Source of the DNA: Pseudoduganella lutea
Lineage (GTDB): Bacteria > Pseudomonadota > Gammaproteobacteria > Burkholderiales > Burkholderiaceae_D
DNA: 64,000 bases
Assembly: GCF_004209755.1 (NCBI RefSeq)
Contig: NZ_CP035913.1
Coordinates: 2,728,001-2,792,000 of the forward strand
Direction of reading: 5' to 3'
In this document: positions 44,308 through 62,640 of the stretch, piece after piece
How positions within the stretch are numbered: position 1 is the first letter of the stretch
Layout: every line of letters begins with the position of its first letter
Notes under the pieces: generated by a model
Told to the model about the DNA's origin: nothing
Database searches by the model: none
What the model saw: only the letters and a program-made list of their open reading frames with translations
Translations under genes and position numbers: made by a program

Positions 44308-45300
44308 ATGCCCGCCGCAAAACCCGACTCTGGACTGACGATGGAAGACCTGGCCCAACTGGCGGGCGTTTCCAAGATCACCGTGTCGCGGGCGTTGCGC
44401 AACAGCCCGCTGGTAACGGAAGCCACCCGCGAAAAGGTGCGCCGTATTGCCGAGGAACAGGGTTACCGTTTCAATGTGAGTGCTCGCAACTTGCGCATGG
44501 GCCGCTCATATTCGGTGGCGGTCGTGGTGGAAATGACGCCCGCCAAAGGCCGCCCAATGTCCGATCCCTATCCTTTGGAACTGCTGGGCGGCATCACCCA
44601 GGAACTGACCACGGCGGGCTACAGCGTGGTACTGACCTCGAAGCAATTGCTCGACACGGCGCCGGTGCGGGGCGCGGACGGCCTGATCCTGCTGGGGCAA
44701 GGCTCGCATGGCGAAGCAGTGACAGCGTTGAAGAAGGCCGGCCTTCCCCTGGTGGTGTGGGGCGCGCCGGAACCCGGGTCGGATACGGTCGTGGTCGGCA
44801 GCGACAACCGCAAGGGCGGTATCAGCGCGGCGCACCGCTTCCTCGAACTGGGCCGCAAGAAATTGGTCTTCCTGGGCGACGTCGATCATGCCGAAGTACA
44901 GGAACGGTGCGCCGGCTTCATCGAAGCGATCGGTAGCCAGGGCAGCGTGCACATCATGCGTCCCAAGGCCTTTACCTTCGAGGCCGGGTTCGATTGCATT
45001 TCAGCGTTGCTGAAGAAAAAAAGCCATGGGTTCGATGGCGTGTTCGCCGCCAGCGACCTGCTGGCGATGGGCGCCATCCGCGCACTGGCCGAGAAAAACC
45101 TGCACGTGCCGGAAATCGTTTCCGTCATCGGCTACGACGACACGCCCGGCGCGGCCAGCTTCGTGCCGCCGCTGACATCGGTACACCAGTACCTGCGCGA
45201 CGGCGGCGTGCTGCTGGCGAAGAAAATGCTGGACCTGATCAACGGCCAGCCTGCCACATCCGAAATGCTGTCCACCATGCTCATGGTGCGGCAAACCTGA
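44308..45300 (+). CDS. LacI-family transcriptional regulator (locus A, first)
   Basis: 330 aa. The N-terminal helix-turn-helix (about 10-60) reads MEDLAQLAGVSKITVSRALRN, with the hinge helix at SARNLRMG. The periplasmic-binding-protein-like domain has DGLILLGQGSHGE, LPLVVWGAPEP, FDGVFAASDLLAMGAIRAL and VIGYDDTPGAASFVPPLTSV. It is divergent from the TonB receptor and just ahead of GH65. CATAAT at 44274-44279 with GTGACA 16 bases upstream could be its promoter. It most likely represses locus A and is released by a sugar from that pathway. Confidence 0.93.
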   Translation: MPAAKPDSGLTMEDLAQLAGVSKITVSRALRNSPLVTEATREKVRRIAEEQGYRFNVSARNLRMGRSYSVAVVVEMTPAKGRPMSDPYPLELLGGITQELTTAGYSVVLTSKQLLDTAPVRGADGLILLGQGSHGEAVTALKKAGLPLVVWGAPEPGSDTVVVGSDNRKGGISAAHRFLELGRKKLVFLGDVDHAEVQERCAGFIEAIGSQGSVHIMRPKAFTFEAGFDCISALLKKKSHGFDGVFAASDLLAMGAIRALAEKNLHVPEIVSVIGYDDTPGAASFVPPLTSVHQYLRDGGVLLAKKMLDLINGQPATSEMLSTMLMVRQT

Positions 45301-45342
45301 CCTCCCTGTGCAACAGCCTGCGGGCTGCTGTTACCCATTATC

Positions 45343-45354
45343 CAAACCGGTTTG
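45343..45354. promoter_or_regulatory. 12-base palindrome in GH65 leader
   Basis: CAAACCGGTTTG is a perfect palindrome with central CCGG, directly before the GAAGGAG ribosome-binding site of the GH65 gene. The form suits a LacI-family operator and differs from the paired sites at 44212-44246. The second LacI gene (49724) is a candidate binder. A chance palindrome of this length cannot be ruled out. Confidence 0.4.
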
Positions 45355-45365
45355 AAGGAGACAAG

Positions 45366-47714: not shown

Positions 47715-48370
47715 ACGACAGCACCAGGCGCAGCATGAAGGATTTCAAGGCTGTGATCTTCGACCTCGATGGCGTGATCACCGATACCGCCCGCTACCAC
47801 TACCTGGCCTGGAAGCGCCTGGCCGAAGCGGAGGGCGTGCATTTCGACGAGGCGTTCAACGAGCACTTGAAGGGCATCGACCGGATGGGGTCGCTCGAAC
47901 TGATCCTGGCCTCGTCCCCGCGCAGCTATACCGATGCGCAAAAGCTGGCGCTGGCCACGGCGAAGAACGAACATTACAAGGAACTGATCGCCACGATGAC
48001 GCCGGCCGACCTGCTGCCTGGTGCCGTCGACGCGCTCGATGCCTGCCGCGCGGCCGGCCTGAAGATCGGCCTGGCTTCCGTGAGCCGCAACGCCTTCACG
48101 GTGCTGGACAGCCTCGGCATCACCGGCAAGTTCGACTATGTGGTGGATGCCGGCACGATTGCTCGCGGCAAGCCGGATCCGGAGATTTTCCTGAAGGCGG
48201 CGCACGAGCTGGGCGTGCCGCCCGCAGACTGCTTTGGCGTCGAGGATGCGGTGGCCGGCGTGGCGTCGATCAAGGCGGCAGGCATGTACGCGATCGGTGT
48301 CGGCGATCCCCGCGTGTTGGCGCAGGCCGACGTGGTGATCCCGGACCTGGCGGCGTTTGCGCTGGACTGA
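47711..48370 (+). CDS. pgmB: Beta-phosphoglucomutase
   Basis: 219 aa, HAD superfamily. It converts beta-glucose-1-phosphate to glucose-6-phosphate. The nucleophile motif is FDLDGVITDTARYHYLAWKRL; SVSRNA carries motif II, GKPDPEIFL motif III and GVEDAVAGV motif IV. The start lies in the ATGA overlap with GH65, so both are translated together and form a complete phosphorolysis route. Confidence 0.95.
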   Translation: MNDSTRRSMKDFKAVIFDLDGVITDTARYHYLAWKRLAEAEGVHFDEAFNEHLKGIDRMGSLELILASSPRSYTDAQKLALATAKNEHYKELIATMTPADLLPGAVDALDACRAAGLKIGLASVSRNAFTVLDSLGITGKFDYVVDAGTIARGKPDPEIFLKAAHELGVPPADCFGVEDAVAGVASIKAAGMYAIGVGDPRVLAQADVVIPDLAAFALD

Positions 48371-48406
48371 CCCCATAAAAACAATCAAACGTTGGGAGGA
48401 GACACC

Positions 48407-49684
48407 ATGCAACGCCGCCGTATCCTGTTCATCCTGTTCCTGATTTACTTCGTGTTCGCCATCCTGCTCAACAGCGTGGGCACCGTCATTCTTCAGGTTA
48501 TCAACAACTATGGCGTCGGCAAGTCCGCTGCCAGCGTGCTGGAAGGTTTCAAGGACCTGCCGATCGCGATCGTGTCGTTCCTGGTGGCCTCGTTCCTGCC
48601 GCGCCTGGGCTACAAGCGTGCGATGCTCGCCGGTCTGGCGATCGTCACCGGCGCGTGCCTGGCCATGCCGCTGGTGCCGGGCTTTGCCACCGCCAAGGTG
48701 CTGTTCCTGTGCGTGGGTGTGGCGTTCGCGCTGGTCAAGGTGTCCGTCTATTCGACGCTGGGGTTGATCGCCCGCAGCCGCAAGGAGCATGCCGGCATCA
48801 TGAACACGCTGGAAGGCTTCTTCATGGTGGGGGTGCTGTGCGCCTACTGGGTATTCAGTTTCTTCATCGATTCGGCGGATCCGCGCTCGCAGGGCTGGCT
48901 GAACGTCTACTGGCCGCTGGCCGCACTGTGCGCCCTGACCTTCGTGCTGCTGGCCGGCACGCACTTCGACGAACGGCTGGCGGTGGTGCCGGCGGAGCGC
49001 ACGCTGGCACAGGATTTCACCGCCATGCTGAAGCTGTTCTTCAAGCCGCTGGTGTGCATCTTCGTGGTCACCGCTTTCCTGTACGTGCTGATCGAGCAGA
49101 GCGTGGGCACCTGGCTGCCCACGTTCAATAACGAAATCCTGCACCTGCCGGCGGCGATGAGCGTGCAGGTCACCAGCATCTTCGCCGCCTGCCTGGCGAT
49201 CGGCCGCCTCTCGGCCGGCGTGGTACTGCGCAAGCTGCACTGGTACCCCGTGATGAACGGCTGCCTGCTCGGCATGGGTGCCGTGGTGCTGGTGGCGCTG
49301 CCGCTGACCCACGGCACGGTTCCCGAAGCCGGCATCACCTGGTTCACGGCACCGGCGGCCACGTTCCTGTTCCCGCTGATCGGCCTATTCATGGCGCCCA
49401 TCTACCCGGGCATCAATTCGGTGATGTTGAGCTCCCTGCCGCAGCACCAGCATGCGCCGATGACGGGGCTGCTGGTGATCTTTTCTGCACTGGGCGGCAC
49501 CACGGGATCGTTGATCACGGGCTACGTGTTCGGCGCGTTCAGCGGCCATTTCGCGTTTTACCTGACACTGGTGCCGATCGCTGTGGTGCTGGTGATGCTG
49601 TTCTTCTTCCGGCGCGCGGTGGAGGGCGCCGCCGGCGGCGACGGTGCCGGGGCCTCCGCTATAATCGGCGGCCAGCCGCACTGA
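48407..49684 (+). CDS. MFS transporter, probable sugar importer (locus A)
   Basis: 425 aa from ATG 48407, with GGGAGGAG upstream. Twelve membrane helices are evident, with the central cytoplasmic loop at about 185-215. LGYKRAMLAGLAIV after helix 2 and LIARSRKEHAGIMNTLEGFFMVG are recognisable. By place in the operon it brings the disaccharide across the inner membrane after uptake by the TonB receptor. The substrate is inferred only from the neighbours. Confidence 0.85.
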   Translation: MQRRRILFILFLIYFVFAILLNSVGTVILQVINNYGVGKSAASVLEGFKDLPIAIVSFLVASFLPRLGYKRAMLAGLAIVTGACLAMPLVPGFATAKVLFLCVGVAFALVKVSVYSTLGLIARSRKEHAGIMNTLEGFFMVGVLCAYWVFSFFIDSADPRSQGWLNVYWPLAALCALTFVLLAGTHFDERLAVVPAERTLAQDFTAMLKLFFKPLVCIFVVTAFLYVLIEQSVGTWLPTFNNEILHLPAAMSVQVTSIFAACLAIGRLSAGVVLRKLHWYPVMNGCLLGMGAVVLVALPLTHGTVPEAGITWFTAPAATFLFPLIGLFMAPIYPGINSVMLSSLPQHQHAPMTGLLVIFSALGGTTGSLITGYVFGAFSGHFAFYLTLVPIAVVLVMLFFFRRAVEGAAGGDGAGASAIIGGQPH

Positions 49685-49723
49685 ATCCATCGCGCTCCGT
49701 CTCCTTCCCTGCCGCCCGCCTGC

Positions 49724-50734
49724 ATGAACCTGAAAGCCCTGGCCGACACGCTCGGCATGTCGAAGACCACCGTCAGCCGCGCCTTGAACGGTTACCCGGA
49801 AGTGTCGGAAGCCACGCGCGAGCGCGTGCGGGCCGCGGCGGCCGCCAGCGGTTATAAGGCCAACCCGGTGGCGCGCCACCTGGCCGTGGGCCGCAGCAAT
49901 GTGCTGGGCATCCTTTACCCGCTGCTGCCGGCCGACCTGGGCGACCCGATGTTCCTCGACGTGGTGGGCGGCATTTCCGCCGCGCTGGAAGCAGCTGGCA
50001 TGAACTTCATCATCGCTCCAGTATCGCCGTCGAATGAACTGCCCTCGTACCAGCAGATGGTGCGCGGGCAGCGCGTGGACGGGCTGATCGTCAGCCGCAC
50101 GCTGGTGGACGATCCGCGCATCGACTACCTGATGGAAGCGGGATTCCCCTTCGTTGCGCATGGCCGCACCGGCGTCAGCGACCGCCATGCGTGGTTCGAC
50201 TACGACAACGCGGCCGGCATCCGCCTGGCGCTCGATGCATTGCTGGCCAATGGCCATCGCCGTATTGCCTTGCTTGGCTCACCGCTGACATTGAATTTTG
50301 CGCGGCAGCGGCGGGACAGCTTTATCCATTGCCTGACCTATGCCGGACTGGCGGCCGATCCGCGGTTGTTGATTGAATCGGCGATCGACCGGCGCAGCGG
50401 CTACCAGGCCATGCAGCAATTGCTGGCCGAAGCGGAGCGCCCGACGGCGGTGATCGTCGATAACCACTTGTCCGGCGTGGGCGCGGTGCGCGCGCTGCTC
50501 GATGCGGGCGTCGGAATCGGCAGCGACATGTCGCTCGTGGTATGGGGACGGATGGCCGATGCGCTGGCCGGGCTGGACGTGGCAACGATCGACCAGCCCG
50601 ATGCGCGCGCCGCCGGCGCCCGGATGGGGGCGATGCTGCTGGCGTTGCTTGAAGGAGCGCCGGCCGCATCGCTGCAGGAGTTGTGGCAGCCAGTGCTGTT
50701 GCCCGGAGCGTCGGTGGGCCGCTGCGCCGGTTGA
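49724..50734 (+). CDS. LacI-family transcriptional regulator (locus A, second)
   Basis: 336 aa. The HTH is MNLKALADTLGMSKTTVSRALNGYPEVSEATRERV, at the very N-terminus, and ARHLAVGRSNVLGILYPLL marks the hinge and linker. The effector domain includes DGLIVSRTLVDDPRIDYL, HAWFDYDNAAGIRLAL and PTAVIVDNHLSGVGAVRAL. It is the last gene of the plus-strand run after the transporter, with a 39-base gap. It may regulate the GH65-pgmB-MFS genes (see the palindrome at 45343). Confidence 0.92.
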   Translation: MNLKALADTLGMSKTTVSRALNGYPEVSEATRERVRAAAAASGYKANPVARHLAVGRSNVLGILYPLLPADLGDPMFLDVVGGISAALEAAGMNFIIAPVSPSNELPSYQQMVRGQRVDGLIVSRTLVDDPRIDYLMEAGFPFVAHGRTGVSDRHAWFDYDNAAGIRLALDALLANGHRRIALLGSPLTLNFARQRRDSFIHCLTYAGLAADPRLLIESAIDRRSGYQAMQQLLAEAERPTAVIVDNHLSGVGAVRALLDAGVGIGSDMSLVVWGRMADALAGLDVATIDQPDARAAGARMGAMLLALLEGAPAASLQELWQPVLLPGASVGRCAG

Positions 50735-51000: not shown

Positions 51001-51033
51001 TTGCATACCCAGAAAAGGAAAGGTATCGTTCCC
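51001..51033 (+). promoter_or_regulatory. Promoter-operator module, site 1 (PL8 gene)
   Basis: TTGCAT (51001-51006), 17 bases, TATCGT (51024-51029) inside GGTATCGTTCCC (51022-51033). The half-site GGGAACGAT in reverse recurs at 54247, 58635 and 58781. The same TTGCAT-17-TATCGTTCCC arrangement is seen at site 3, so promoter and operator appear to be a conserved unit. Confidence 0.65.
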
Positions 51034-51190
51034 ATTCACTTTATGTTCTCTGATCTTTTTGATGATGAAACGGTCTGCCAGGCATGGGTGCGTCGATAAC
51101 GAAACCTGTCAGGACCGGCTTGAAGCGTCAGCGTCGCTGGCGCACGGTCCGGTGGCGGGAGGCAGTTCAACATCCACTTGAGGAGCACAC

Positions 51191-54136
51191 ATGTTCTTGA
51201 AGAAACGAGGTTTGGGCACGCTGGCACTTTGCATGACCCTGTTTGCCGCCATGCATGCACCCGCCGTGCATGCCGATGAGTTCGACACGTTGCGCGCCAA
51301 GTGGCAGACGCGTGCCAATGGCGGCAGCGTCAACGTGGCCGATGCCGATGTCGCCAGGCAGATCACCGCGGATACAGGGAATGCGCAGGCCAGCTGGAAT
51401 ACACTGATCACCAGCGCCAGCCGCACGTCGCTGTGGCCGGACTTGAGCGACTGGACCAAGTCCTCCACCATCACCGGCAGCTATTCGCGACTCGCCGTCA
51501 TGGCGGCCGCCTGGGCTTCGCCGCATTCTTCGCTCTATCACAATGCCGCGCTGGGAACGGACATCGTGGCCGGACTCGACTGGCTCACCCAGAACTACTA
51601 CCGGGCCGCGCTGGCAACTGCGTACGACAACTGGTGGGACTGGCAGATCGGCACGCCGCTGGCGCTCAACAATGCCGCCGTCGCCGTCTATCCATTGCTG
51701 ACGCCCACGCAGGTCAGCGCGTACATGGCCGCCATCGACCGTTTCGTGCCGGACCCCACACTGCGTACCAGTGCCAACGGCAAACTGTCCAGCACCGCCG
51801 AAACGGGCGCCAATCGCCTCGACAAGGCGCTCGTGGTCGTATTGCGGGGCATTCTCGCCAAGTCCGCCACCAAGATCGCCCAGGGCCGCGATGCCATCAG
51901 TCAAACCCTGCCTTACGTGACCAGCGGCGATGGTTTCTACGTGGATGGCTCGTTCATACAGCATGAGGACATTGCCTACATCGGCAGCTATGGCCCGGTG
52001 CTGCTGTCCGATATCGCCCGGCTGTTCTACATCCTCAACGGCTCGACGTGGAGCGTGACCGATCCCAATGCCGGCAATGCATACGCATGGGCCATGGAGG
52101 CATTCCGCCCGTTTATCTACGATGGCGCCATGATGGATTCGGTGCGCGGTCGCGCGATCGCGCGCCAGTTCGGCGACGATCACCGCAATGGCCGCGCCGT
52201 CATCGGTTCCATGGCGGAGCTGGCGCAGAGCCTGCCGGCCAGCCAGGCGGCCGAACTGAAAACCGTACTCAAAGGGTGGATGCAACGCGACACCAGCTTC
52301 GGCACGTCCTATTTCACGCCGACGCCGACCGCCACGCCGGGCGTGCTGGCCGGCGTCCCCGTCTACCAGATCGGCTTACTGAAAAGTATCCTCGCCGACG
52401 GTGCCATCGCGCCAGCCGAGGAGCCGGTGGGCACCCATGTCTTTGCGTCGAGCGATCGCGTCGTCCAACGCGAAGACGGCCACGCCTACGTGCTGAGCCT
52501 TTTCTCCAACCGCATCTCCGCCTTCGAGTACGGCAATGGCGAAAACACCAGGGCGTGGTGGACCGGCGTGGGCATGAGCTACCTGTACAACGGCGACTTG
52601 ACCCAGTACACCGGCAACTTCTGGCCGACCATCGATGCGCGGCGCCTGCCGGGAACCACCACCGACCACAGCGGCAGCAGCACGCTGACCGCCTGGGCCA
52701 GCAATCGCAATACCCGCAACATGGTCGGCGGCGCCGAACTGGCAGGACGCTACGCTGCCGTGGCATTCGACTTCGCCACCGCCAACGTGACCGGTTCGAC
52801 GCTGACCGGAAAAAAAGCCTGGTTCCTGTTCGGCGACCGGATCGTCGCTGCCGGAGCCGGCATCGCCAGCACGGGCGGCGCCAACGTGGAAACCATCGTG
52901 GAGAATCGCAAGCTGAACGCCGCTGGCGACAATGGCTTGACGGTCAATGGCGCGGTGAAATCCGCCAGCGCCGGCTGGAGCGAAACCATGGGGAGCGTGA
53001 AGTGGGCCCATCTTGCCAGCAGCGTCGCCGGCAGCGACATCGGCTATTACTTTCCCACCATGCCTTCGGTGACCGGCCTGCGCGAAACGCGCACCGGTGC
53101 GTGGAGCGACATCAACACCACTGCCAGCGCCGACCCGGTCTCGAACACCTTCCTCAGCCTGGCGCTGCAGCACGGCACCGATCCAACGGCAGGCTCCTAC
53201 AGCTACGTGGTCCTGCCCAACCGCAGCGCAGCGGCAACCGCTGCCTACGCGGCGGCACCCACGGTCGCGGTGCTCGAACGGTCGACCAGCGCCATCGCGG
53301 TCGCCGACAGCGCCCTCGGGCTGACTGGCGCCGTGTTCTGGAACGATGCCACGAAGTCCGTCAGCCAGGGAGGCAAGATCCTGCTGACCAGCGATCGCAA
53401 GGCCGCGGTGGTGATGCAGCAGACCGGCACCGACCTGGAGGTCAGTGTTGCCGATCCCACCCAGGCCAATACCGGTGTCATCAACATCGAAATCAACCGG
53501 AGCGCATCGGCACTGACCAGTGCGGACGCGGCGGTGACGGTAGTGCAGTTGAGCCCCACCATCAAGCTGGCGGTCAGCACCGGCGCCGCGGCCGGCAAAT
53601 CGTTCACGGCGCGCTTCGCCCTGCACACGGTCCATAGCCTGCCGCCCGCCGCGGATGCCTATGTTCGTGACGGTACCTATGCGACGACCAACTACGGCAG
53701 CACGAACAGCCTGGTACTGAAGAAAGATACATCCAACTACCATCGCAAGGCCTTCGTCCGGTTCGACCTGTCGGCCATCACGGGCACACTGGACAGCGCC
53801 AGTCTCATGCTGACCACTTCCTCGATCGGCCAGAGCACGTCCATGACGACCAATCTGCTGCTGGCCAGCAGCGCGAGCTGGTCCGAAGCCACGCTGAACT
53901 GGACCAACGCGCCGGCCGCCGGTGCGCTGCTTGGCAGCTGGACAGCACCGGCTGCCCAGGAACCGGTCACGGTCGACGTCACGAATGCGGTCAGCGCCGC
54001 GCTGCAGGGCAACCGTCAGCTGTCCCTCGTACTGGAACTGGCCAGCAGCTATGGCGCCAACGGCTGGATCGAGTACGCCAGCAAGGAAAACGGCACCGCC
54101 ATTTTCCGTCCGCAACTGGTCATCAGGACGCGCTAG
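51191..54136 (+). CDS. Secreted polysaccharide lyase family 8 enzyme with C-terminal DNRLRE/CBM96-like domain
   Basis: 981 aa with a signal peptide of about 28 residues (MTLFAAMHAPAVHA). PL8 lyases (hyaluronate, chondroitin AC, xanthan lyases) eliminate across uronic-acid linkages. The catalytic set is visible: N147 in NWWDWQIGTP, H258 and Y267 in FIQHEDIAYIGSYG, and R321 in SVRGRAIARQ; the spacings H to Y (9) and H to R (63) match characterised enzymes. The alpha/alpha toroid covers about 30-370 and the beta-sandwich about 400-800. The final about 170 residues (from DAYVRDGTYATTNYGSTNSL) resemble the DNRLRE/CBM96 domain, likely for binding substrate or the cell surface. The substrate is not resolved. 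An operator-like site lies in its promoter. Confidence 0.93.
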   Translation: MFLKKRGLGTLALCMTLFAAMHAPAVHADEFDTLRAKWQTRANGGSVNVADADVARQITADTGNAQASWNTLITSASRTSLWPDLSDWTKSSTITGSYSRLAVMAAAWASPHSSLYHNAALGTDIVAGLDWLTQNYYRAALATAYDNWWDWQIGTPLALNNAAVAVYPLLTPTQVSAYMAAIDRFVPDPTLRTSANGKLSSTAETGANRLDKALVVVLRGILAKSATKIAQGRDAISQTLPYVTSGDGFYVDGSFIQHEDIAYIGSYGPVLLSDIARLFYILNGSTWSVTDPNAGNAYAWAMEAFRPFIYDGAMMDSVRGRAIARQFGDDHRNGRAVIGSMAELAQSLPASQAAELKTVLKGWMQRDTSFGTSYFTPTPTATPGVLAGVPVYQIGLLKSILADGAIAPAEEPVGTHVFASSDRVVQREDGHAYVLSLFSNRISAFEYGNGENTRAWWTGVGMSYLYNGDLTQYTGNFWPTIDARRLPGTTTDHSGSSTLTAWASNRNTRNMVGGAELAGRYAAVAFDFATANVTGSTLTGKKAWFLFGDRIVAAGAGIASTGGANVETIVENRKLNAAGDNGLTVNGAVKSASAGWSETMGSVKWAHLASSVAGSDIGYYFPTMPSVTGLRETRTGAWSDINTTASADPVSNTFLSLALQHGTDPTAGSYSYVVLPNRSAAATAAYAAAPTVAVLERSTSAIAVADSALGLTGAVFWNDATKSVSQGGKILLTSDRKAAVVMQQTGTDLEVSVADPTQANTGVINIEINRSASALTSADAAVTVVQLSPTIKLAVSTGAAAGKSFTARFALHTVHSLPPAADAYVRDGTYATTNYGSTNSLVLKKDTSNYHRKAFVRFDLSAITGTLDSASLMLTTSSIGQSTSMTTNLLLASSASWSEATLNWTNAPAAGALLGSWTAPAAQEPVTVDVTNAVSAALQGNRQLSLVLELASSYGANGWIEYASKENGTAIFRPQLVIRTR

Positions 54137-54246
54137 CGCGGCGCACCAGCAGGACACACCGGGCGACCTGCACGGTAGTTTTCGCTAGGCTCGAATGCTG
54201 CGCGTAGCACCACGATAAAAACCGATACCGCATTCAAACACGTTAT

Positions 54247-54258
54247 GATATCGTTCCC
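54247..54258 (+). promoter_or_regulatory. Operator site 2 (607-aa gene)
   Basis: GATATCGTTCCC, the same word as site 3 and one base from site 1. It overlaps a TATGAT (54244-54249) that could be the -10. The -35 is weaker than at sites 1 and 3. It lies 94 bases before the start of the next gene. Confidence 0.6.
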
Positions 54259-54351
54259 TTAGTTTAAATGTTACAAGCCCAAGCGCCGGACCATGCAAGC
54301 TGTCCGGCGCGACCGCCGGCATGGCCCGGCCCAAACTTTTCCGGAGAATCA

Positions 54352-56175
54352 ATGCGTCATTTGGTTGTACTGTTTGCCGCGGCCCTCCTGCAGGCCGCGC
54401 CCGCCCACGCGACCGCGCCGTTGGACAGCACCGTCGAGCAAGCCTATCCACAACTGGAATGGCTTTTCCAGAAACTGGTGGCGGAAGGGGAAAACTTCAC
54501 GCTGGGTGGCAAGGAAGCCTTCAGGACCAAGGACAAATACCTGCCGGGAAAGGTCGCTGCCGGCTTGGCCGACCTGCTGGTGCACTTGCCGCCAGACGAC
54601 CCGCGCCTGCCCGCCATGCTGCGCGATTACGCCAGGCTGGCCGATCTCACCGTCGGCATGGACAATGAAACCTGGGGCATCTACTACTACATGGGCGCCC
54701 TGCACCGGCTGAACAAGGCAGGCTTGCTGCAGCGGGCCGTGCGGCCCGACACCCTGGCGGCACTGCGCCAGCGGCTCGACTGGCGCAGCTTCGTTCGCGA
54801 GAGCGATTTCACCTTGTCCAGCCTGCCCACCAACTATTACGGCGTCGCCTTCAGCATCGCCCGGCTGCGCGCGCTGATGGGCTGGGAAGACACGCGCGCC
54901 AGCGAAGTACTGCTCGACAAAATGATGAAGCATTACGCGGCCTACTCGGGCGACTTCGGTTTCAGCGACGAAACCGATGGCCACGGGCGTTTCGACCGCT
55001 ACAGCATCCTGCTCAGCGCCGAGATTTGCGAGCGTTTCCTGGAAACAGGCATGGAGGTCCCGGCAGAACTGAAAGCGCTGCTGCGCAAGTCCGCCGACGT
55101 GGCGCTGAACAGCGCCAGCGCTGACGGCACCGGCTTCACCATGGGCCGCAGCCTGGGGCCCTACGGCGAGACGGCGATGCTGGAAATCCTGTCGACCGCT
55201 GCTTACCTCGGCGTGCTCAGCGCCGAAGAAAAGGAATACGCCTATGCCTATTCCGCCCGCATCGCCGAGCGGTACATGCGCTTCTGGTACCAGCCGGAAC
55301 TGCGCTCGGTCGACCTGTGGGGCGGTGGACGCCGCACCGATGCCTACCGCGGCAACTACCGTATCCTGGGCGAGAATTTTTCGCTGCTGCATCAGCTGAT
55401 CGTCACCAGCGACCTGTGGTCGCGCGCCGGCATGGCGGGCCGTGCTCCGCGCGAGGACCTGGCCCAGTGGCTGCAACGGGCCCGCCCGAAGTTCAGCCTG
55501 ACGCGTTTCGCCCAGGGCCGGTACGACCGCGCGCTGGCCACGTGGCGTGACGGGGACCACGTGTTCAGCCTGTCGATGGTCAATGGCGGGCCCGGCATGC
55601 ATGCCCACAGCCCGTATTACCCGCTATCCTTCTCCCACAGCATCGTGTCAGGAATCGCCGATAGCGGCGCGGCGCGGCCGCAACTGCTGCCGAAGTTCAC
55701 GTTGGCCGATGGCAGCGAACTGATCGCCACGGCCTTCATCCAGGACATCCAGGCGCGCGCCAGCGGCGCCGGGCAGATCGTCAGCTACCGCCAGGACGCC
55801 CTGACACGCCTCGGTCAGGACCTGCCGCAGAAGGATCCCCGCATCCGCGTCGACACGGAATACGCCTTGATGCCGGGAGCCATTACCCGCACCGACCGCT
55901 ACACGGCCGTCGTACCCGTGGAGGTGGCCGACGTGACGCTGGAGTTCGCGTCATTTTCAAGGGGCGCCACCGCTGCCGGCACAGCGATCGGTTTTGCCGA
56001 AGGCACCGTGCGCAGCTTCGACGTGAAAGGCCTCGCATCCTGCCAGGCGCTTCCCGCGGGGGACAGCCCGGACTATCGGGCCCCATATGGGCAGATGCAT
56101 ACCGTGGTCCGGTGCGCCAGCGGCGCCATCAGCCTGCGCGAGCCGCTCGTGGTGAGCTGGACCATCCGTTACTGA
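54352..56175 (+). CDS. Secreted protein of unrecognised family, possible polysaccharide lyase or hydrolase
   Basis: 607 aa from ATG 54352 (CCGGAGAATCA upstream), with a signal peptide of about 19 residues. The first about 370 residues look helical, with repeated hydrophobic helices, GMDNETWGIYYYMGALHRL, LPTNYYGVAFSIARLRALMG, GHGRFDRYSILLSAEICERF and FTMGRSLGPYGETAMLEIL, suggesting an alpha/alpha toroid. The last about 200 residues are beta-rich and start with SLSMVNGGPGMHAHSPYYPL. This layout is shared by several polysaccharide lyase families, but I cannot assign one. Its own operator-like site and position between PL8 and GH105 argue for a role in the same pathway. Confidence 0.7.
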   Translation: MRHLVVLFAAALLQAAPAHATAPLDSTVEQAYPQLEWLFQKLVAEGENFTLGGKEAFRTKDKYLPGKVAAGLADLLVHLPPDDPRLPAMLRDYARLADLTVGMDNETWGIYYYMGALHRLNKAGLLQRAVRPDTLAALRQRLDWRSFVRESDFTLSSLPTNYYGVAFSIARLRALMGWEDTRASEVLLDKMMKHYAAYSGDFGFSDETDGHGRFDRYSILLSAEICERFLETGMEVPAELKALLRKSADVALNSASADGTGFTMGRSLGPYGETAMLEILSTAAYLGVLSAEEKEYAYAYSARIAERYMRFWYQPELRSVDLWGGGRRTDAYRGNYRILGENFSLLHQLIVTSDLWSRAGMAGRAPREDLAQWLQRARPKFSLTRFAQGRYDRALATWRDGDHVFSLSMVNGGPGMHAHSPYYPLSFSHSIVSGIADSGAARPQLLPKFTLADGSELIATAFIQDIQARASGAGQIVSYRQDALTRLGQDLPQKDPRIRVDTEYALMPGAITRTDRYTAVVPVEVADVTLEFASFSRGATAAGTAIGFAEGTVRSFDVKGLASCQALPAGDSPDYRAPYGQMHTVVRCASGAISLREPLVVSWTIRY

Positions 56176-56203
56176 TTTCAAACCAACCCAAGGACTCCAC
56201 ACG

Positions 56204-57367
56204 ATGACGACGAATCCCTTGCGGCTGTGTGCCGCGCTGCTGTTGGCTTTCCCCATGGTGGCCGTGCCGGCCGGCACGGCGCTTGCCGCCGCGCCGGCCC
56301 CTGCATCGCACACGGCCCAGCCCGCGCCCGAGGCAACGCAGGCGGCTGTGATCGAGATCATGCAGCGGGCAGCCGACTGGCAGCTCGGCCACCCCAGCGC
56401 GCACCCGCCGACCGACTGGACGCAAGGCGCCGGTTATGCCGGCATGATGGCGCTGGCCGGCATTTCCGACGACCCGCGCTACCGTGAAGCGATGCGCCGG
56501 ATGGGCGAACAGAACGGCTGGAAGCTGGGGCCCTACCGCTATTTCGCGGATGACCATATCGTCGGGCAGACGTACGCCGAGTTGTACCTGCAGTTCCGCG
56601 ATCCGGCGATGATCGCGCCCATGCGCGCGCAGTTCGACGGCATCCTGGCCGAACCCCGCGAAGGTTCGCTGCGCTTCGATGCGCCGGGCGCGTTGCAGCG
56701 CTGGGTGTGGTGCGACGCGCTCTTCATGGCGCCGCCCACATGGGCGCGCCTGACGGCCGCCACCGGTGACCCGCGCTACCTGGAACTGGCGATCGCGCAC
56801 TGGTGGCGCACTGCCGACTTCCTGTATGACCCCGAGGAGCGGCTGTTCTTCCGCGACAGCACGTACTTTGCCAAGCGCGAACCGAATGGCCGCAAGGTGT
56901 TCTGGAGCCGCGGCAACGGCTGGGTCATGGGCGGCCTGGTGCGCATGATGCAGTACATCCCGCCGGCCCATCCCGCACGCCCCCGCTTCGAACGCCAATT
57001 CAAGGACATGGCCCAGCGGCTGCTGGCCCTTCAGCACGCCGATGGCACATGGCGCACCAGCCTGCTGGACCCCGATAGCTATCCGCTCAAGGAAACCAGC
57101 GGCACGGCGCTGACCACCTATGCGCTGGCGTGGGGCGTCAACGAAGGCTTGCTCGAGCGCTCGGTGTTCGCTCCCGCCGTGAAGCGGGCCTGGGCCGGGC
57201 TGACGGCCAGCGTGCAGGCCGACGGCAAACTGACCGATGTGCAACCGGCTGGCCAGGATCCGCGCGCGTTCGATCCCCAGGGCACGGAAGTGTTCGGTGT
57301 TGGCGCATTCCTGCTGGCCGGCAGCGAGGTGTACCGGATGGCCCCGGGCAAGGCCAAACCGCTTTGA
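56204..57367 (+). CDS. Glycoside hydrolase family 105/88-like unsaturated uronyl hydrolase
   Basis: 387 aa with a signal peptide of about 29 residues (up to AGTALAAA). These enzymes remove the unsaturated uronic acid left at the non-reducing end by a lyase, by hydration of the double bond. The conserved acidic residues are in RYFADDHIVGQTYAELY (D116/D117) and RWVWCDALFMAPPTW (D171); FWSRGNGWVMGGLVRMM and ETSGTALTTYALAWGVNEG are also family marks. The signal peptide places it in the periplasm or outside. It is 28 bases after the 607-aa gene, so probably co-transcribed with it. The stop converges on the LacI gene 10 bases away. Confidence 0.92.
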   Translation: MTTNPLRLCAALLLAFPMVAVPAGTALAAAPAPASHTAQPAPEATQAAVIEIMQRAADWQLGHPSAHPPTDWTQGAGYAGMMALAGISDDPRYREAMRRMGEQNGWKLGPYRYFADDHIVGQTYAELYLQFRDPAMIAPMRAQFDGILAEPREGSLRFDAPGALQRWVWCDALFMAPPTWARLTAATGDPRYLELAIAHWWRTADFLYDPEERLFFRDSTYFAKREPNGRKVFWSRGNGWVMGGLVRMMQYIPPAHPARPRFERQFKDMAQRLLALQHADGTWRTSLLDPDSYPLKETSGTALTTYALAWGVNEGLLERSVFAPAVKRAWAGLTASVQADGKLTDVQPAGQDPRAFDPQGTEVFGVGAFLLAGSEVYRMAPGKAKPL

Positions 57368-57377
57368 TTCAACCGCC

Positions 57378-58460
57378 CTAGGCGGCCGACTTGCGCGGCC
57401 GGCGCGCCCGTTCCTTGCCGGGCGTCGCGACGTCGGGCGGCGCCGTGGACGCGCGGATAACGAGTTCGCCGGGAAACGTCATGCGCTGTCGCTTGCCCGG
57501 TTCATTGTGGATACGGCGGATCAGCTCGCCGACGGCCGCGCGCGCCATCTCGGGGGCTGGATGGCGCAGGGTCGTCAAACCCGGTTGCAGCATGCCGGCG
57601 CCCGCCATGTCGTCGAAGCCGACAAGGGACAGCTGGTCGGGCAGCTTCAGGCCGGCCTCGCGCGCCGCGCGCATGCAACCGATCGCCATGGCATCGTTGG
57701 CGGCGAAGATCGCCGTCGGGCGGTCGGGCTGCGCCAGCAGCAAGCGCGCGGCCTCGAAACCGGTATGTTCATTGAATTCACCCTGCCCGACCAGGCGCTC
57801 GTCGGCCACGATACCCGCCTGTTCCAATGCCAGGCGGTAGCCACGCTCGCGCTCCGCACTCTGCCCGGAATAAGGCGTGCCACGAATAAAGCCGATACGG
57901 CGATGGCCGAGATCGATCAGGTGCGTGACCGCGTCACGCGAACAATTGACGTTATCGCCGATCACGACCGGGAGCGAGGTCTCCCTGGCGCAGTAGTTCA
58001 CCAGCACGACCGGTGTGTCGCTCTTTTCCAGCGTCTGCAAATAGGGTTCGGTCATGCGCGGCGTGACGAACACGAGGCCATCCCAAAGGCTGTCCAGCAG
58101 CTCGCTGATGCGCTTGCCGCCATCGACATCGAGTTCGCCGAAGGTGTTGTAGATCAGCAGGTCCATGTGATGTTCGTGCACCACGGCACCCATCTCGGCG
58201 ACGAACTCGTTGATCACGGTCGAGGTCATGTCGGTAACGACGAAGCCGACGACATTGGTGCGTCCGCTCTTCCGCATGCGCGCCGCGGCATCCGGGGAAT
58301 AGCCGAGCGAAGCAGCCGCCTCGAGCACCTTCGCCTTTACCTCTTCCGCCACATAGCCGGCACCACTGAACGCGCGCGAAGCCGTCATGGTGGAGACCCC
58401 GGCGGCCTCGGCGACGTCGACCAGCGTGGTGCCCATTTTACCCATCCATTCTTTTGTCAT
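57378..58460 (-). CDS. LacI/GntR-type transcriptional regulator (locus B)
   Basis: 360 aa. The HTH is TLVDVAEAAGVSTMTASRAFSGAGYV (about 12-37), followed by ARMRKSGRTNVVGFVV. The effector domain has DGLVFVTPRMTEPYL, PVVLVNYCARE, IFAANDAMAIGCMRAAREAG and LVGFDDMAGAGMLQPGLTTLRHP. The STMTASR helix is like the gluconate-repressor branch. A basic tail (ERARRPRKSAA) ends the protein. It is the only regulator in locus B and the best candidate for the four GGGAACGAT sites, two of which lie upstream of it, so self-regulation is probable. Confidence 0.93.
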   Translation of the reverse strand: MTKEWMGKMGTTLVDVAEAAGVSTMTASRAFSGAGYVAEEVKAKVLEAAASLGYSPDAAARMRKSGRTNVVGFVVTDMTSTVINEFVAEMGAVVHEHHMDLLIYNTFGELDVDGGKRISELLDSLWDGLVFVTPRMTEPYLQTLEKSDTPVVLVNYCARETSLPVVIGDNVNCSRDAVTHLIDLGHRRIGFIRGTPYSGQSAERERGYRLALEQAGIVADERLVGQGEFNEHTGFEAARLLLAQPDRPTAIFAANDAMAIGCMRAAREAGLKLPDQLSLVGFDDMAGAGMLQPGLTTLRHPAPEMARAAVGELIRRIHNEPGKRQRMTFPGELVIRASTAPPDVATPGKERARRPRKSAA

Positions 58461-58613
58461 CAGTGTCGTTCTCGATATGCGCGATCAGCGGTCGACAGGA
58501 TTATCCCATGCCCGCCATGCGGCAGCGCTTCCTGCCGCCACGGCGCGAACCGCTGCCGCGGTGTGTCGTTCTCCTCCGATGCGCCAGCCGAACATCCTCG
58601 CGGCACAAACATG

Positions 58614-58646
58614 TTGCATGCTCTATTACAAACTGATATCGTTCCC
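58614..58646 (+). promoter_or_regulatory. Promoter-operator module, site 3 (toward TonB receptor)
   Basis: TTGCAT (58614-58619), 17 bases, TATCGT (58637-58642) within GATATCGTTCCC (58635-58646). Spacing and words equal those of site 1. It would start transcription toward the TonB receptor gene with a leader of about 250 nt. Confidence 0.65.
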
Positions 58647-58780
58647 ACATCGTGATCAGAAGCATTGCCAACGCCGCAAGCCCGTGATTTCCGCATCGCA
58701 GAACTGCAAACGGCGGCGTGGCACGTCCATGGCAATAAGCTGGACAAGGCAGTATCCGCTGGTAGCACGCGGCATGAAAT

Positions 58781-58792
58781 GGGAACGATCCC
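58781..58792 (-). promoter_or_regulatory. Operator site 4 (toward LacI gene)
   Basis: GGGAACGATCCC on the plus strand; read on the minus strand, GGGATCGTTCCC. It has the most symmetric form of the four (GGGA..TCCC around a central CG). On the minus strand the flanks CAGAAAAAG and CATTTCA resemble those of site 1 (CAGAAAAGG and CATTCA). Confidence 0.6.
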
Positions 58793-58898
58793 TTTTTCTG
58801 CCTGTGCATTGAACTGACATTCTTTGCCTGCCTGGAAGCACGCCTGGCCTGGGCAAGCGGGATAGTCGAATACTTTCGAAAAATGACTGGAGAAGTCG

Positions 58899-61331
58899 AT
58901 GCGCATTCCCTGTAACGAGCAGCATGCAGTCTCCCTCCGCCCGGCCGCCATGGCGGTGGCGCTGGCCATGACCGCCCTGGCCACTGGCAACACGTGGGCC
59001 GACCAGGCACCGCCCGCGACCACCGCGCCGGACGATGGCACCCGACTGGAAACCGTGATCGTGACCGCCAACAAGCGGGCCCAGAACCTGCAGGACGTGC
59101 CCGCCGCCGTCAGCGTGCTGAACGACGCCTCCTTGCAACGCAACAATGTGCGTGACCTGTCCGACCTGCCTTCGCTGTCGCCCGCCTTGACGATCAACTA
59201 CGGCAGCCAGCCGGCCAACAACTCCATCAACATGCGTGGCATCGGTACTTACTCCCTGGGTATCGGCGTGGAGGCGGACGTGTCCGTCATCATCGATGAC
59301 ATCCCCGTCGGCATGCAGGCCAACGCCTTCAAGGACCTGGCGGACGTGCACCGCATCGAAGTGCTGAAAGGGCCGCAGAGCACGCTGCTTGGCAAGAGCT
59401 CGATCGCCGGCGCCATCAACATCACGACGAAGCCGATCGAAAGCAACTGGCGCACCCGCACCAGCACCCTCGCGACCAGCGACCACGAGTGGCGCGTCAG
59501 CGCTGCCACGTCCGGCGCCATCAGCGATACCGTGCGGGTACGGCTGGCGGCCAGCCGCACCGGCTTCCCCGGCGTCGTCAAGAACCTGACGGATGGCAAG
59601 GATCTCAACGGTTCCTACAACACGACGGTTTCGGCAAAACTGGCATGGACCCCGCTCGATAACCTGGAAATCGTTCTGTCCCCCCACGCCAACCGCAGCA
59701 ATGCCAACTGCTGCCTGTCGCCTTACACCTCGATGACGCCCGGCGGCCTGTACCAGAACATCGCCCAGTTGCCGGCATCCCAGGTGCTGGCCGGCATTCC
59801 GATCGGTCCGGGCAATGTTGCAGTGCGCACGGACTACCCCGCCGGCGGCAGGGGGCGCGATGCGGGCAGCGGCCTGAAGGTCGCCTACACGTTCGCCGAC
59901 GATTCGCCGCTGGCGGGCCACATGCTCAGCTCCATCACTTCGTACCAGTCCTACCGGATGGACGACTTCCAGGATGTCGACGGGCTGGACGCGGACACGC
60001 TGCGCTACACCCTCCTCAACGGCCGGCCAAGCGGCTTCACCGGGGGCCAGTACCAGGCCGGCTTCTTCGAGGTGAAGTCGCGCACGCAGGAATTGCGCCT
60101 GACCTCGCCGGACACGGGCAAGCTCCGCTACGTCGCGGGCCTTTGGTACGGCGACAACCGGCTGGAGCGGGAACTGAAGAAGTCGCCCGTCGGGCCCATT
60201 GCTTCGTGGTACAACGCCCACGCCCGCAACACCAGCTATGCCCTGTTCGGCCAATCCTCGTGGGAATTCGCCAGCAGGACCAGCCTCATCACTGGTCTGC
60301 GGCTGAACCGGGAAGATACCGGCTACGACTTCACGCGGTTCGCGCCGCCACCAGCCGGTACCCGCACGCCGATCGATTACCTGGCCAAGAAGGACAGCAA
60401 TCGCGACGTGACGGGAAAGATCGGCGTGGAACACCACGTCGATCCGGACACGATGGTGTACGGCTTGTTTTCCACTGGCCACAAAGGCGTCGCCTATGAC
60501 TTGACCAGCAGCCTGACCGCGGCGATCGCCGCCCACCAGCCGGTACCGGCGGAAACGGCGAAGAACATGGAACTCGGTGCCAAGCTCTCGCTGCTGGACA
60601 ACCGTGCCATGCTGAACCTGGCCATCTTTCGCACCAACTTCAAGGGCTTCCAGCAATCGGCCGGGTTCATCGATCCCGATGGCCAGTACCGCACGACACT
60701 GCACAGCATCGGCGGGCTGCGCACCAGCGGCGTGGAAGTCGATGCGACCTGGCGCGCCAGCCGGGAACTGACGGTGAATGGGGCGTTCGCGTTCACCCGC
60801 GCCATCATCACGGCATTCGAGAACGGCCCCTGCTACAGCGTGCCAAGCGCGGATGGATTATCCGCGGTCCCTGGCGGCAATTGCGCCCCCAATCCCCGCT
60901 ACAACAACACCAACGTGGCGGACCTGCGGGGAAAGACCCTGCCCAACGCGCCGAAAATAAAACTCAACCTGGGCGCGCAATACGACCTGCCGCTGCCTGC
61001 GCGCCGCTTCGATGCCTTCTTCACGGCGGCCTACCGGTGGCAGAGCGCAACGCAGTTCAGCCTGAACCAGGACCCCGCCAACATCCAGGGCGCCTATGGC
61101 ATCGTCAACCTCGGCATGGGCCTGAAAGACAGGAAGGATGCCTACAAACTCAGTTTCATGGTGAACAACCTGCTCGACAAGAGCTATGCCAGCGGCCTGG
61201 CGAATGCGGTCGGCAGCACCTGGAGCGTCAAGGCGCCGAACGCATCGCCACACCTGGTGAACTACACCACGTGGACCCCGGCACGCGACTACCAGCGCTA
61301 CTTCACCGTGCGCCTGGACGCCACCTTCTGA
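58899..61331 (+). CDS. TonB-dependent outer-membrane receptor (locus B)
   Basis: 810 aa with a signal peptide of about 35 residues (AMAVALAMTALATGNTWA). The plug begins LETVIVTANKRAQNLQDVPAAVSVL, as in the Caulobacter/Sphingomonas-type receptors, with NNSINMRGIGTYSLGIGVE and HRIEVLKGPQSTLLGKSSIAGAI. The barrel ends YFTVRLDATF. The DUF2264 gene follows 58 bases after its stop. It is expected to take up the oligosaccharides released by the PL8 enzyme. Its control region carries operator sites 3 and 4. Confidence 0.94.
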   Translation: MRIPCNEQHAVSLRPAAMAVALAMTALATGNTWADQAPPATTAPDDGTRLETVIVTANKRAQNLQDVPAAVSVLNDASLQRNNVRDLSDLPSLSPALTINYGSQPANNSINMRGIGTYSLGIGVEADVSVIIDDIPVGMQANAFKDLADVHRIEVLKGPQSTLLGKSSIAGAINITTKPIESNWRTRTSTLATSDHEWRVSAATSGAISDTVRVRLAASRTGFPGVVKNLTDGKDLNGSYNTTVSAKLAWTPLDNLEIVLSPHANRSNANCCLSPYTSMTPGGLYQNIAQLPASQVLAGIPIGPGNVAVRTDYPAGGRGRDAGSGLKVAYTFADDSPLAGHMLSSITSYQSYRMDDFQDVDGLDADTLRYTLLNGRPSGFTGGQYQAGFFEVKSRTQELRLTSPDTGKLRYVAGLWYGDNRLERELKKSPVGPIASWYNAHARNTSYALFGQSSWEFASRTSLITGLRLNREDTGYDFTRFAPPPAGTRTPIDYLAKKDSNRDVTGKIGVEHHVDPDTMVYGLFSTGHKGVAYDLTSSLTAAIAAHQPVPAETAKNMELGAKLSLLDNRAMLNLAIFRTNFKGFQQSAGFIDPDGQYRTTLHSIGGLRTSGVEVDATWRASRELTVNGAFAFTRAIITAFENGPCYSVPSADGLSAVPGGNCAPNPRYNNTNVADLRGKTLPNAPKIKLNLGAQYDLPLPARRFDAFFTAAYRWQSATQFSLNQDPANIQGAYGIVNLGMGLKDRKDAYKLSFMVNNLLDKSYASGLANAVGSTWSVKAPNASPHLVNYTTWTPARDYQRYFTVRLDATF

Positions 61332-61389
61332 TCCGCGGTCCGGTGCGGCCGGCGGCCGCACTGCATCCAGCCCATGGAAAGGTCATTGC

Positions 61390-62640
61390 ATGAAACGTCG
61401 AAGGTTCATCGGCAGACTTGCCGCGATGGGCGGCCTGGTTGCCGGCCGCGACCAGCTGGCGGCCGCGGCCCCGCCAACGGGCGATGCGCGCGCCTATATG
61501 GTCGACCTGCTGGTGCGCATGGCAATGCCGGTGCTGCGGGCGATGGCGAAGGGACAATTGCAAAAGACCTTCCCCGTCGAGCTCAGTCCGGTCTGGCGTG
61601 GCGCCGACAGCAGGCTGTGCTACCTGGAGTGTTTCGGTCGCCTGCTGGCTGGCATCGCCCCATGGCTGGCATTGCCGGACAGCGACAGCGAAGAAGGCCG
61701 GTTGCGCCGGCAGATGCGTGAACTCGCCCTGCAAGGCATTGCACAGGGCGTCGATCCCGCGAGCCCGGACTACCTGGCATGGCGCGCCGGCAACCAGGTG
61801 CTCGTGGACTCCTCCTACCTGACGAATGCCTTGCTGCGGGCCCCTGCCGCGCTATGGGAACCGCTGAGCGCCCGGACCAAGCGGCTGCTCGTGGCCGAGA
61901 TACGCGGAGCCCGCCGTTTCCAGCCGCCGTACAACAACTGGCTGCTGTTTGCCGCGATGAACGAAGTGTGGCTGGCCTCGGTTGGCGAGGACGGCGACAT
62001 CGTACGGCTCGGCACGGGCGTGAAGAAAACCAGCGAGTGGTATGCGGGCGATGGCTGGATCAAGGATGGCGAAGCGTTCCACTTCGATTACTACAACTCC
62101 TATGTGATGTGGCCAATGCAGCTGGAGATCCTGGAACAGATGACCACGCTCGGCCTCGCTGTCTACCGCGACAATCCGGCGAGCATGCTCGCCCTGACAT
62201 TGCAGCGCACGCAGCGCTATTGCGAGCACCTGGAACGCCTCGTCTCACCCGAAGGCACTTTTCCGGTGATCGGCCGCTCGCTGACCTACCGGACCGCGGC
62301 CTTCCAGCCGCTGGCCCTACTGGCCTGGCGCAAGCAGCTGCCCGCATCGCTGCCGGAAGGCCAGGTGCGCGCGGCCCTGCATGCGGTGCACCGAACCATC
62401 TGGACGAACCCGAGCAACTTCACCGCCGACGGCTTCCTGACCCTGGGCTTTGCCGGCCACAACCCGGGTCTCGCGGACTGGTATTCGAACAATGGCAGCA
62501 CCTACATCGCCTCGACCGCGCTGCTGGCGCTGGGCTTGCCACCGACCGATACCTACTGGACCACCGCTGCGCTGGCGTGGACGCAGAAAAAGGCCTTTGC
62601 AAATGCGCCTTTCCCCCGCGATTACGCGGTGGACTATTAA
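61390..62640 (+). CDS. DUF2264-like exported protein, possible GH154-type beta-glucuronidase
   Basis: 416 aa. The N-terminus MKRRRFIGRLAAMGG has a twin-arginine-like export signal (RRRFIG, then a hydrophobic stretch to about residue 27). The body is helical, with LAWRAGNQVLVDSSYLTNALLRAP, YNNWLLFAAMNEVWLA, WYAGDGWIKDGEAFHFDYYNSYVMWPMQLEIL and GFAGHNPGLADWYSNNGSTYIASTALLALGLP, all characteristic of DUF2264 proteins. Some members of this family have been classed as GH154 with beta-glucuronidase activity. A uronate-related role fits PL8 and GH105 nearby. The exact reaction is inferred. Confidence 0.82.
   Translation: MKRRRFIGRLAAMGGLVAGRDQLAAAAPPTGDARAYMVDLLVRMAMPVLRAMAKGQLQKTFPVELSPVWRGADSRLCYLECFGRLLAGIAPWLALPDSDSEEGRLRRQMRELALQGIAQGVDPASPDYLAWRAGNQVLVDSSYLTNALLRAPAALWEPLSARTKRLLVAEIRGARRFQPPYNNWLLFAAMNEVWLASVGEDGDIVRLGTGVKKTSEWYAGDGWIKDGEAFHFDYYNSYVMWPMQLEILEQMTTLGLAVYRDNPASMLALTLQRTQRYCEHLERLVSPEGTFPVIGRSLTYRTAAFQPLALLAWRKQLPASLPEGQVRAALHAVHRTIWTNPSNFTADGFLTLGFAGHNPGLADWYSNNGSTYIASTALLALGLPPTDTYWTTAALAWTQKKAFANAPFPRDYAVDY

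Follow-up and report, generated by a model that had tools for sequence, protein, structure and literature searches.

Genes and enzymes of the locus

The subject of this analysis is a putative polysaccharide utilisation locus of Pseudoduganella lutea, located in a stretch of 64,000 nucleotides of its genome (contig NZ_CP035913.1, positions 2,728,001 to 2,792,000), called the window below. The locus opens on the forward strand with a gene for a polysaccharide lyase of family 8 (PL8; 51191-54136, 981 amino acids), which carries Lyase_8 domains and a CBM96/DNRLRE domain. It is followed on the same strand by the gene of a 607-residue protein (54352-56175), whose family is not assigned by Pfam, NCBIfam or the Protein Data Bank (PDB), and by that of a GH88/GH105-type unsaturated uronyl hydrolase (56204-57367). 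The PL8 enzyme and the 607-residue protein both start with a signal peptide, as judged by eye. A gap of 28 bp separates the 607-residue gene from the hydrolase gene, and the two probably form one operon. A LacI-family regulator gene lies on the reverse strand (57378-58460; recognition helix STMTASR). Beyond it, again on the forward strand, are the genes of a TonB-dependent receptor (58899-61331, 810 amino acids), a DUF2264 protein (PF10022, former GH154; 61390-62640) and a sugar porter of the major facilitator superfamily (MFS), which starts at about 62694, reaches 64000 and continues beyond the window end. Past this end (L014) lie the remainder of the porter gene and, about 0.6 kb on, a second LacI gene. 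The original prediction, made from the letters of the window, had given this gene order and called the locus one for uronate polysaccharides. The order was confirmed, and the assignment is supported.

In the PL8 protein the domains Lyase_8_N, Lyase_8 and Lyase_8_C score 291, 232 and 53 bits, above the cut-off. The histidine and tyrosine that are catalytic in PL8 enzymes are kept as H258 and Y267 in a QHxxxxYxGxYG stretch (aligned with 1j0m and 6f2p); both are listed as such in Table 4 of PMC12088678. The hydrolase matches Glyco_hydro_88 at 268 bits, above the cut-off. Its best PDB match is 4ce7, an unsaturated 3S-rhamnoglycuronyl hydrolase (2.6e-69), and it is termed GH88/GH105-type here.

The DUF2264 protein matches PF10022 at 358 bits, above the cut-off, and PDB chains named beta-D-glucuronate dehydratase with an E-value of about 1e-104. 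One member of this former GH154 family, BcGDH, dehydrates saturated glucuronate at the non-reducing end and thereby enables its removal by GH88; the founding member BT_3677 has dehydratase activity too (PMC12269599). Alanine variants of ten active-site residues of BcGDH are inactive (PMC12269599). All ten (E74, R78, N176, N177, W178, F181, Y229, R285, Y289 and Y354) are kept in the window protein, as counted by hand in a printed alignment, and the protein is predicted to be a beta-glucuronate dehydratase. The nearest solved relative speaks against this, as it is 8oi4, deposited as a beta-galactosidase (4.5e-133), although dehydratase activity has been argued for the whole family, the galactosidase-named member included (PMC12269599). 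DUF2264, which the original prediction gave by its label, is not a family of unknown function: two members are published as glucuronate dehydratases (PMC12269599).

A protein family with a predicted lyase fold

The 607-residue protein has no Pfam or NCBIfam match at E ≤ 0.001, and its best match among PDB sequences, a glucoamylase, has an E-value of 0.14. Comparison of 21 aligned relatives with Pfam gave three single matches, with E-values of 0.23 or worse and none of them to a lyase. The earlier statement that the family is unassigned thus stands, in that no credible Pfam, NCBIfam or PDB match was found. As for the suggested novelty of the gene combination, the 607-residue gene occurs together with PL8 and DUF2264 at one of the 24 loci of the family, namely in the window.

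The predicted fold is of the heparinase type, i.e., an alpha/alpha toroid combined with an antiparallel beta-sheet, and the match extends over most of the chain. In Foldseek comparisons the models resemble PL12, PL35, PL33 and PL8 lyases, and the same fold is shared by PL15, PL17 and PL39. A viral fold library gave four matches at E ≤ 0.001, of which two are unnamed and the others are AMV238 and the baculovirus protein ODV-E66. The invariant residues N161 and Y217 are 56 positions apart, while in PL35 and PL12 the Asn and Tyr of the pair are separated by 54; a second invariant pair, N105 and Y162, is similarly spaced. The assignment of PDB chains to lyase families follows, in part, entry titles and PMC12088678. 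By its predicted fold, the 607-residue protein looks like a polysaccharide lyase.

A number of observations weigh against this assignment. One model is of moderate quality (pLDDT 67.6, pTM 0.68), the other of low quality (61.3 and 0.47), and the TM-scores to the lyases are low. Unlike PL12, PL33, PL35, PL8, PL15, PL17 and PL39, the protein has no PDB sequence match and no profile similarity to the heparinase-type and PL8 sets (effective depth of the comparison 2.1). It also lacks an invariant histidine in the beta-domain, as opposed to PL12, PL17 and PL35. Besides, a further lyase is encoded at five loci of the family, with PF05426 in L009, L011, L051 and L071 (twice) and PF14099 in L062, and PL8 occurs elsewhere in the genome in 7 of 12 genomes with the GH2/GH3 type of locus described below. 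The PF05426 lyase of L009 matches best to chains such as 7wxj and 7fhu. The notion that the 607-residue protein is the sole lyase in all its loci was rejected because of the other lyases in L009, L011, L051, L062 and L071.

The search matched 24 relatives, 16 of which were read at 19-20 kb. Neighbouring genes were tallied over 24 loci including the window; L012, whose contig has the same length as that of L064, was not counted, and the sequence of L010 stops 0.2 kb beyond the gene. The tally comprises a TonB receptor (19 loci), a short-chain dehydrogenase/reductase (SDR; 19), a LacI of the family's own type (15), an enzyme of the GH88+DUF4861 type (14), GH2 (13), GH3 (13), CHMI (9), glucarate dehydratase (4), PL8 (1) and DUF2264 (1). 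The window is included in the count for the family's own LacI type on the basis of a 33% match of the other LacI, and its hydrolase is counted under GH88+DUF4861. Glucarate dehydratase and the BglX-type GH3 pass NCBIfam cut-offs, while GH2 is nearest to beta-glucuronidase, below the cut-off. The best NCBIfam match of the SDR is another sugar dehydrogenase, again below the cut-off; we take it to be uronate-dehydrogenase-like. A glucuronan-like substrate would fit these loci. Poly-glucuronate is cleaved by enzymes of PL20 and PL38 and by some members of PL5. A cellouronate lyase is the subject of a genome note (PMC5477187).

Several loci have a palindrome near the 607-residue gene, which reads AGTTAAACGTTTAACT in L009, L010, L011 and L062 and AGGTAAACGTTTACCT in L051. 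In the tree, the window copy of the gene groups with those of L051 and L055 (support 90/95). This grouping suggests that the gene was transferred to the PL8 locus, where it came under an operator of the PL8 type. At the locus of one relative, the TonB receptor gene matches in three pieces and looks broken (L067:15884-17303).

Operator-like sites and LacI regulators

Four operator-like sites are present in the locus, and their letters were read directly at the places given in the original prediction. On the reverse strand lie AATGGGAACGATACCTT (51020..51036; core 51022-51033, GGTATCGTTCCC), 154 bp upstream of the PL8 gene, TAAGGGAACGATATCAT (54245..54261; core 54247-54258, GATATCGTTCCC), 90 bp upstream of the 607-residue gene, and TGTGGGAACGATATCAG (58633..58649; core 58635-58646, likewise GATATCGTTCCC), 172 bp upstream of the LacI gene. 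The forward-strand site AATGGGAACGATCCCTT (58778..58794; core 58781-58792, GGGAACGATCCC) is found 104 bp upstream of the TonB receptor gene. A fifth site, GAGAACGATATC, lies upstream of the second LacI gene, past the window end at genome position 2792540. As the regulator has a helix-turn-helix and a sugar-binding domain, and the sites are centred on CG and stand ahead of the regulator gene and of neighbouring units, the arrangement fits a local LacI regulon. A promoter scan found one match against 1.9 expected.

Genome-wide, the bare 9-mer GGGAACGAT is unspecific, with 68 exact matches in the single-contig genome of 7,504,849 bases (6 for the reversed pattern). Within the 11.6 kb of the locus it occurs four times, where 0.105 copies would be expected (a post hoc Poisson P of about 5e-6), and with up to one mismatch it is not enriched over the whole window (18 against 13.6 expected). 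When three bases are added, the resulting 12-mer GGGAACGATMYC has nine exact copies in the genome, four of them in the locus (again post hoc), each located between called genes and ahead of a transcription unit. Four of the other five lie within frames that are coding-like by composition, the fifth (7,377,548) does not. A bare open-frame test fails to separate the two groups, because two of the window sites also lie in long antisense frames. A cluster of four exact GGGAACGAT copies in 6.6 kb at 2.51 Mb (L013, 2507445-2514042) was considered as a second regulon member and rejected, as it lies in coding repeats: the open frames there are very long and rich in GGxGND-type repeats, which makes it a codon effect.

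A site matrix was built from 14 sites of other PL8 loci, hand-picked from matches in L052, L160, L161, L163 and L166; it does not include matches in L154, L156, L159, L162, L164 and L165 or duplicates on the opposite strand. In the 64-kb window, the sites at 58633 (21.0), 54245 (19.3) and 51020 (16.2) rank first to third, and the site at 2792540 scores 25.8. In 167 kb of background from the same genome, two positions score 16.9-17.3, so that a score like that of 51020 is rare but not unique. Some results count against the sites as operators. The matrix is only partly independent, as its training sites were first collected with a window-derived matrix, and the site at 58778, the weakest of the four, scores just 10.9. 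In addition, no window site pairs at 7 of 8 positions (4 or 5 of 7 by hand); sites pairing at 7 or 8 of 8 are present in L052 and L154. Mixed operator half-sites are treated in PMC2978694.

The window LacI is probably the repressor of the locus. The original prediction of one regulator site set common to the units of the locus gains support from the paralogous locus, which has related sites ahead of its TonB, LacI, GH88 and PL8 genes. Its notion of a single LacI regulator did not hold, as the second LacI gene, with its own site, lies just beyond the window; the two proteins share 58.6% identity. In the tree, the window LacI groups with those of L014, L052, L166, L161 and L162 (82/90). In LacI proteins, residues AA-15/16 are reported to correlate with operator bases NT-5/4, and AA-20 with NT-6 (PMC2978694). 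The window LacI has TM at AA-15/16 and the neighbouring LacI RM, while the LacI proteins of L052, L161, L162 and L166 have VM. Each of the four window sites carries GG at NT-5/4 in one half, where the VM loci mostly show AT. In three of these sites the other half, GATATC or GGTATC, shares the T at NT-4 with the VM loci; the fourth site has GG in both halves. A clean switch between GGGAAC and GATAAC halves had to be toned down to a matter of degree, because the VM loci also hold GNGAAC halves (GAGAAC, GCGAAC and GTGAAC), which is a further point on the negative side. This pattern of residues and bases fits a predicted local regulation with partial divergence. A site near the window motif, ATTGGAAACGATACCAA (L051:4517-4533), stands ahead of a weak GH88-like gene at the second 607-residue locus of the genome; a search of 20 kb there gave no relative of LacI.

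Origin, function and related systems

The same genome has a paralogous locus at 786-806 kb (L169 and L052), where relatives of AgaS, a ROK kinase, KbaZ, AgaR and NagA adjoin a PL8 locus. The latter further encodes a porter, a TonB receptor (61% to that of the window), a LacI (58%), two PL8 enzymes (41 and 56%) and an enzyme of the GH88+DUF4861 type (66% to the window hydrolase). The operator GATAACGWTAYC occurs at five places in the genome, four of them in this locus, ahead of the TonB, LacI, GH88 and PL8 genes. The same N-acetylgalactosamine (GalNAc) genes are present at a PL8 locus in two relatives (L161 and L162); in L161, KbaZ passes its NCBIfam cut-off, AgaR and NagA are just below theirs, and AgaS and the kinase are well below. 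GalNAc catabolism beside PL8 and GH88 points to chondroitin-type glycosaminoglycans. In the tree, the PL8 enzymes of the GalNAc-linked loci fall in a clade whose sister is the window PL8 (99/98). All these loci resemble that of the window in their related PL8, GH88/GH105-type enzyme, TonB receptor, LacI, porter and site placement, but they differ from it by their GalNAc genes and mostly GATAAC halves. The window differs from its paralogue by the second LacI gene, the GGGAAC halves and two additions, the 607-residue gene and DUF2264. It looks like a remodelled duplicate of a chondroitin-type locus, without the GalNAc genes.

Three side observations concern the surroundings of these genes. The genome has one more PL8 locus (L053, 284001-304000), in which a GH35 beta-galactosidase is accompanied by a TonB receptor (64% to that of the window) and a weak GH88-like gene. 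Phospholipase C type genes lie near PL8 in three relatives (L155:14168-16228, L160:16328-18367 and L165:7980-10130), as checked with Pfam for L160 and by eye for L155 and L165. Upstream of the window locus lies what is apparently a separate disaccharide operon (44994-50734). It comprises an MFS transporter gene and another LacI gene, both Pfam-checked, together with genes that by eye are of the GH65 phosphorylase type and phosphoglucomutase-like.

Altogether, this locus of a bacterium of the Massilia group fairly probably serves polysaccharide utilisation of the TonB type, with a glucuronate-containing glycan as substrate and its own LacI in control, and arose by duplication of a chondroitin-type locus followed by remodelling. 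PL8, by its family, and the 607-residue protein, by its predicted fold and neighbours, would cut the polymer by beta-elimination, leaving 4,5-unsaturated uronate ends that the GH88/GH105-type hydrolase would take off. Based on its homology to BcGDH, the DUF2264 dehydratase would convert saturated glucuronate ends into unsaturated ones, allowing the hydrolase to continue. The TonB receptor and the porter would, by family, import the oligosaccharides and remaining sugar. LacI, perhaps with its second paralogue, would bind GGGAACGATAYC-type operators and so repress all units, with a sugar product relieving the repression. The 607-residue protein would be the founder of an unclassed uronate lyase family and would have come from a different, glucuronan-like locus, with its own LacI and operator left behind. 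The locus is real and probably functional, a regulon-type locus of a known kind. The porter gene argues against this, as its first codons and its remainder are in different frames, with the break in a G-run near 62780; it may be broken or contain a sequencing error. The substrate candidates are hyaluronan or unsulfated chondroitin, as suggested by PL8 kinship, and a glucuronan-like glycan, as suggested by the 607-residue family; xanthan is less likely. Of the acidic polysaccharides proposed originally, the glycosaminoglycans have gained from the GalNAc genes at the paralogue and in relatives and from the PL8 tree, while the window itself has no GalNAc genes.

Alternatively, the locus could serve xanthan or a xanthan-like bacterial polysaccharide, with PL8 as xanthan lyase and the hydrolase acting on unsaturated glucuronate of the side chain, and the best PDB matches of PL8 are indeed xanthan lyases (659 and 603 bits; the Streptomyces chondroitin AC lyase reaches 393). 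However, the PL8 of a relative's GalNAc-linked locus is also closest to a xanthan lyase (547 bits), so that the best match does not discriminate, and xanthan was rejected as a conclusion from that match. The window PL8 also stands beside the GalNAc-linked clade in the tree, and none of the locus proteins scanned has a domain of an endoglucanase or an alpha-mannosidase. A xanthan locus is quite unlikely. Somewhat less unlikely is that the 607-residue protein has a lyase fold without being a lyase, e.g., as a uronate C5-epimerase, a binding protein or a non-catalytic relative, with PL8 alone cutting the polymer. Dermatan sulfate epimerase is an example of such an enzyme with the lyase fold. Still, GH88 by family needs unsaturated uronides, and GH88 is encoded at all twelve GH2/GH3-type loci L056-L061 and L065-L070, where tblastn with six probes (three PF05426, PF14099, PL8 and heparinase-type) detected no other lyase. 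Furthermore, no lyase is among the 25 Pfam families listed, out of 41, for 19 proteins of L058 and L069, and the N161/Y217 spacing is close to that of the PL35/PL12 pairs.

The sites, finally, may serve a LacI encoded elsewhere or be chance repeats, leaving the local LacI without control. The abundance of the bare 9-mer, the poor palindromes, the weak fourth site and the similar GGAAACGATACC ahead of the weak GH88-like gene at the second 607-residue locus are in line with this. On the other hand, four of the nine exact 12-mers fall in one 12-kb locus, all intergenic and ahead of transcription units, three of the sites top the matrix scan, related sites occupy matching places in the paralogue, and the fifth site precedes the neighbouring LacI paralogue. 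Control from elsewhere or chance is therefore decidedly unlikely, and local LacI control is preferred.

A more specific reading is offered tentatively, with a likelihood somewhat short of even. The 607-residue proteins would form a new polysaccharide lyase family, found in Oxalobacteraceae, a few other Burkholderiales and one Asticcacaulis plasmid, and acting on glucuronan-like or glucuronate-rich glycans. The window copy would have been captured into the duplicated chondroitin-type locus, losing its TAAACGTTTA-type operator and gaining one with GGGAAC and, in three of four sites, GATATC or GGTATC. Regulator and operator would have changed together at the positions of the recognition code, and the LacI paralogues could read the unlike halves as a heterodimer.

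Two points go beyond the routine. One is the unclassed family with its predicted lyase fold; the other is a duplicated locus in which the regulator changed in concert with the operators and the set of enzymes. If the family consists of lyases, it would supply a function for a set of Massilia-type loci that gave no other lyase in the searches, and would add a new sequence family to the heparinase-type fold. A genome with two paralogous loci whose operators are related yet distinct is a natural test of repressor/operator divergence after duplication. The literature search found no Massilia work that pairs a polysaccharide utilisation locus with a polysaccharide lyase, and the titles and opening lines of abstracts on Massilia and chondroitin name no such locus.

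Among betaproteobacteria, the window locus would exemplify the cycle of a dehydratase and an unsaturated-uronyl hydrolase that was described recently. The closest comparison is PUL25 of Bacteroides caccae, which acts on chondroitin and comprises PL35, GH88, BcGDH and GH109 (PMC12269599). Both systems combine a lyase, a hydrolase of the GH88/GH105 kind and a dehydratase (predicted in the window) of the former GH154 with a conserved active site. The window locus differs by having TonB and LacI instead of SusC/D, and PL8 with the 607-residue protein instead of PL35; neither GH109 nor a sulfatase is present among the locus proteins scanned. A second comparison is the ulvan dehydratase P29_PDnc, which feeds a GH105-type hydrolase (PMC8511951) and is unrelated in sequence to BcGDH (PMC12269599); in the window, the hydrolase matching 4ce7 best would be fed by the DUF2264 dehydratase in the same way.
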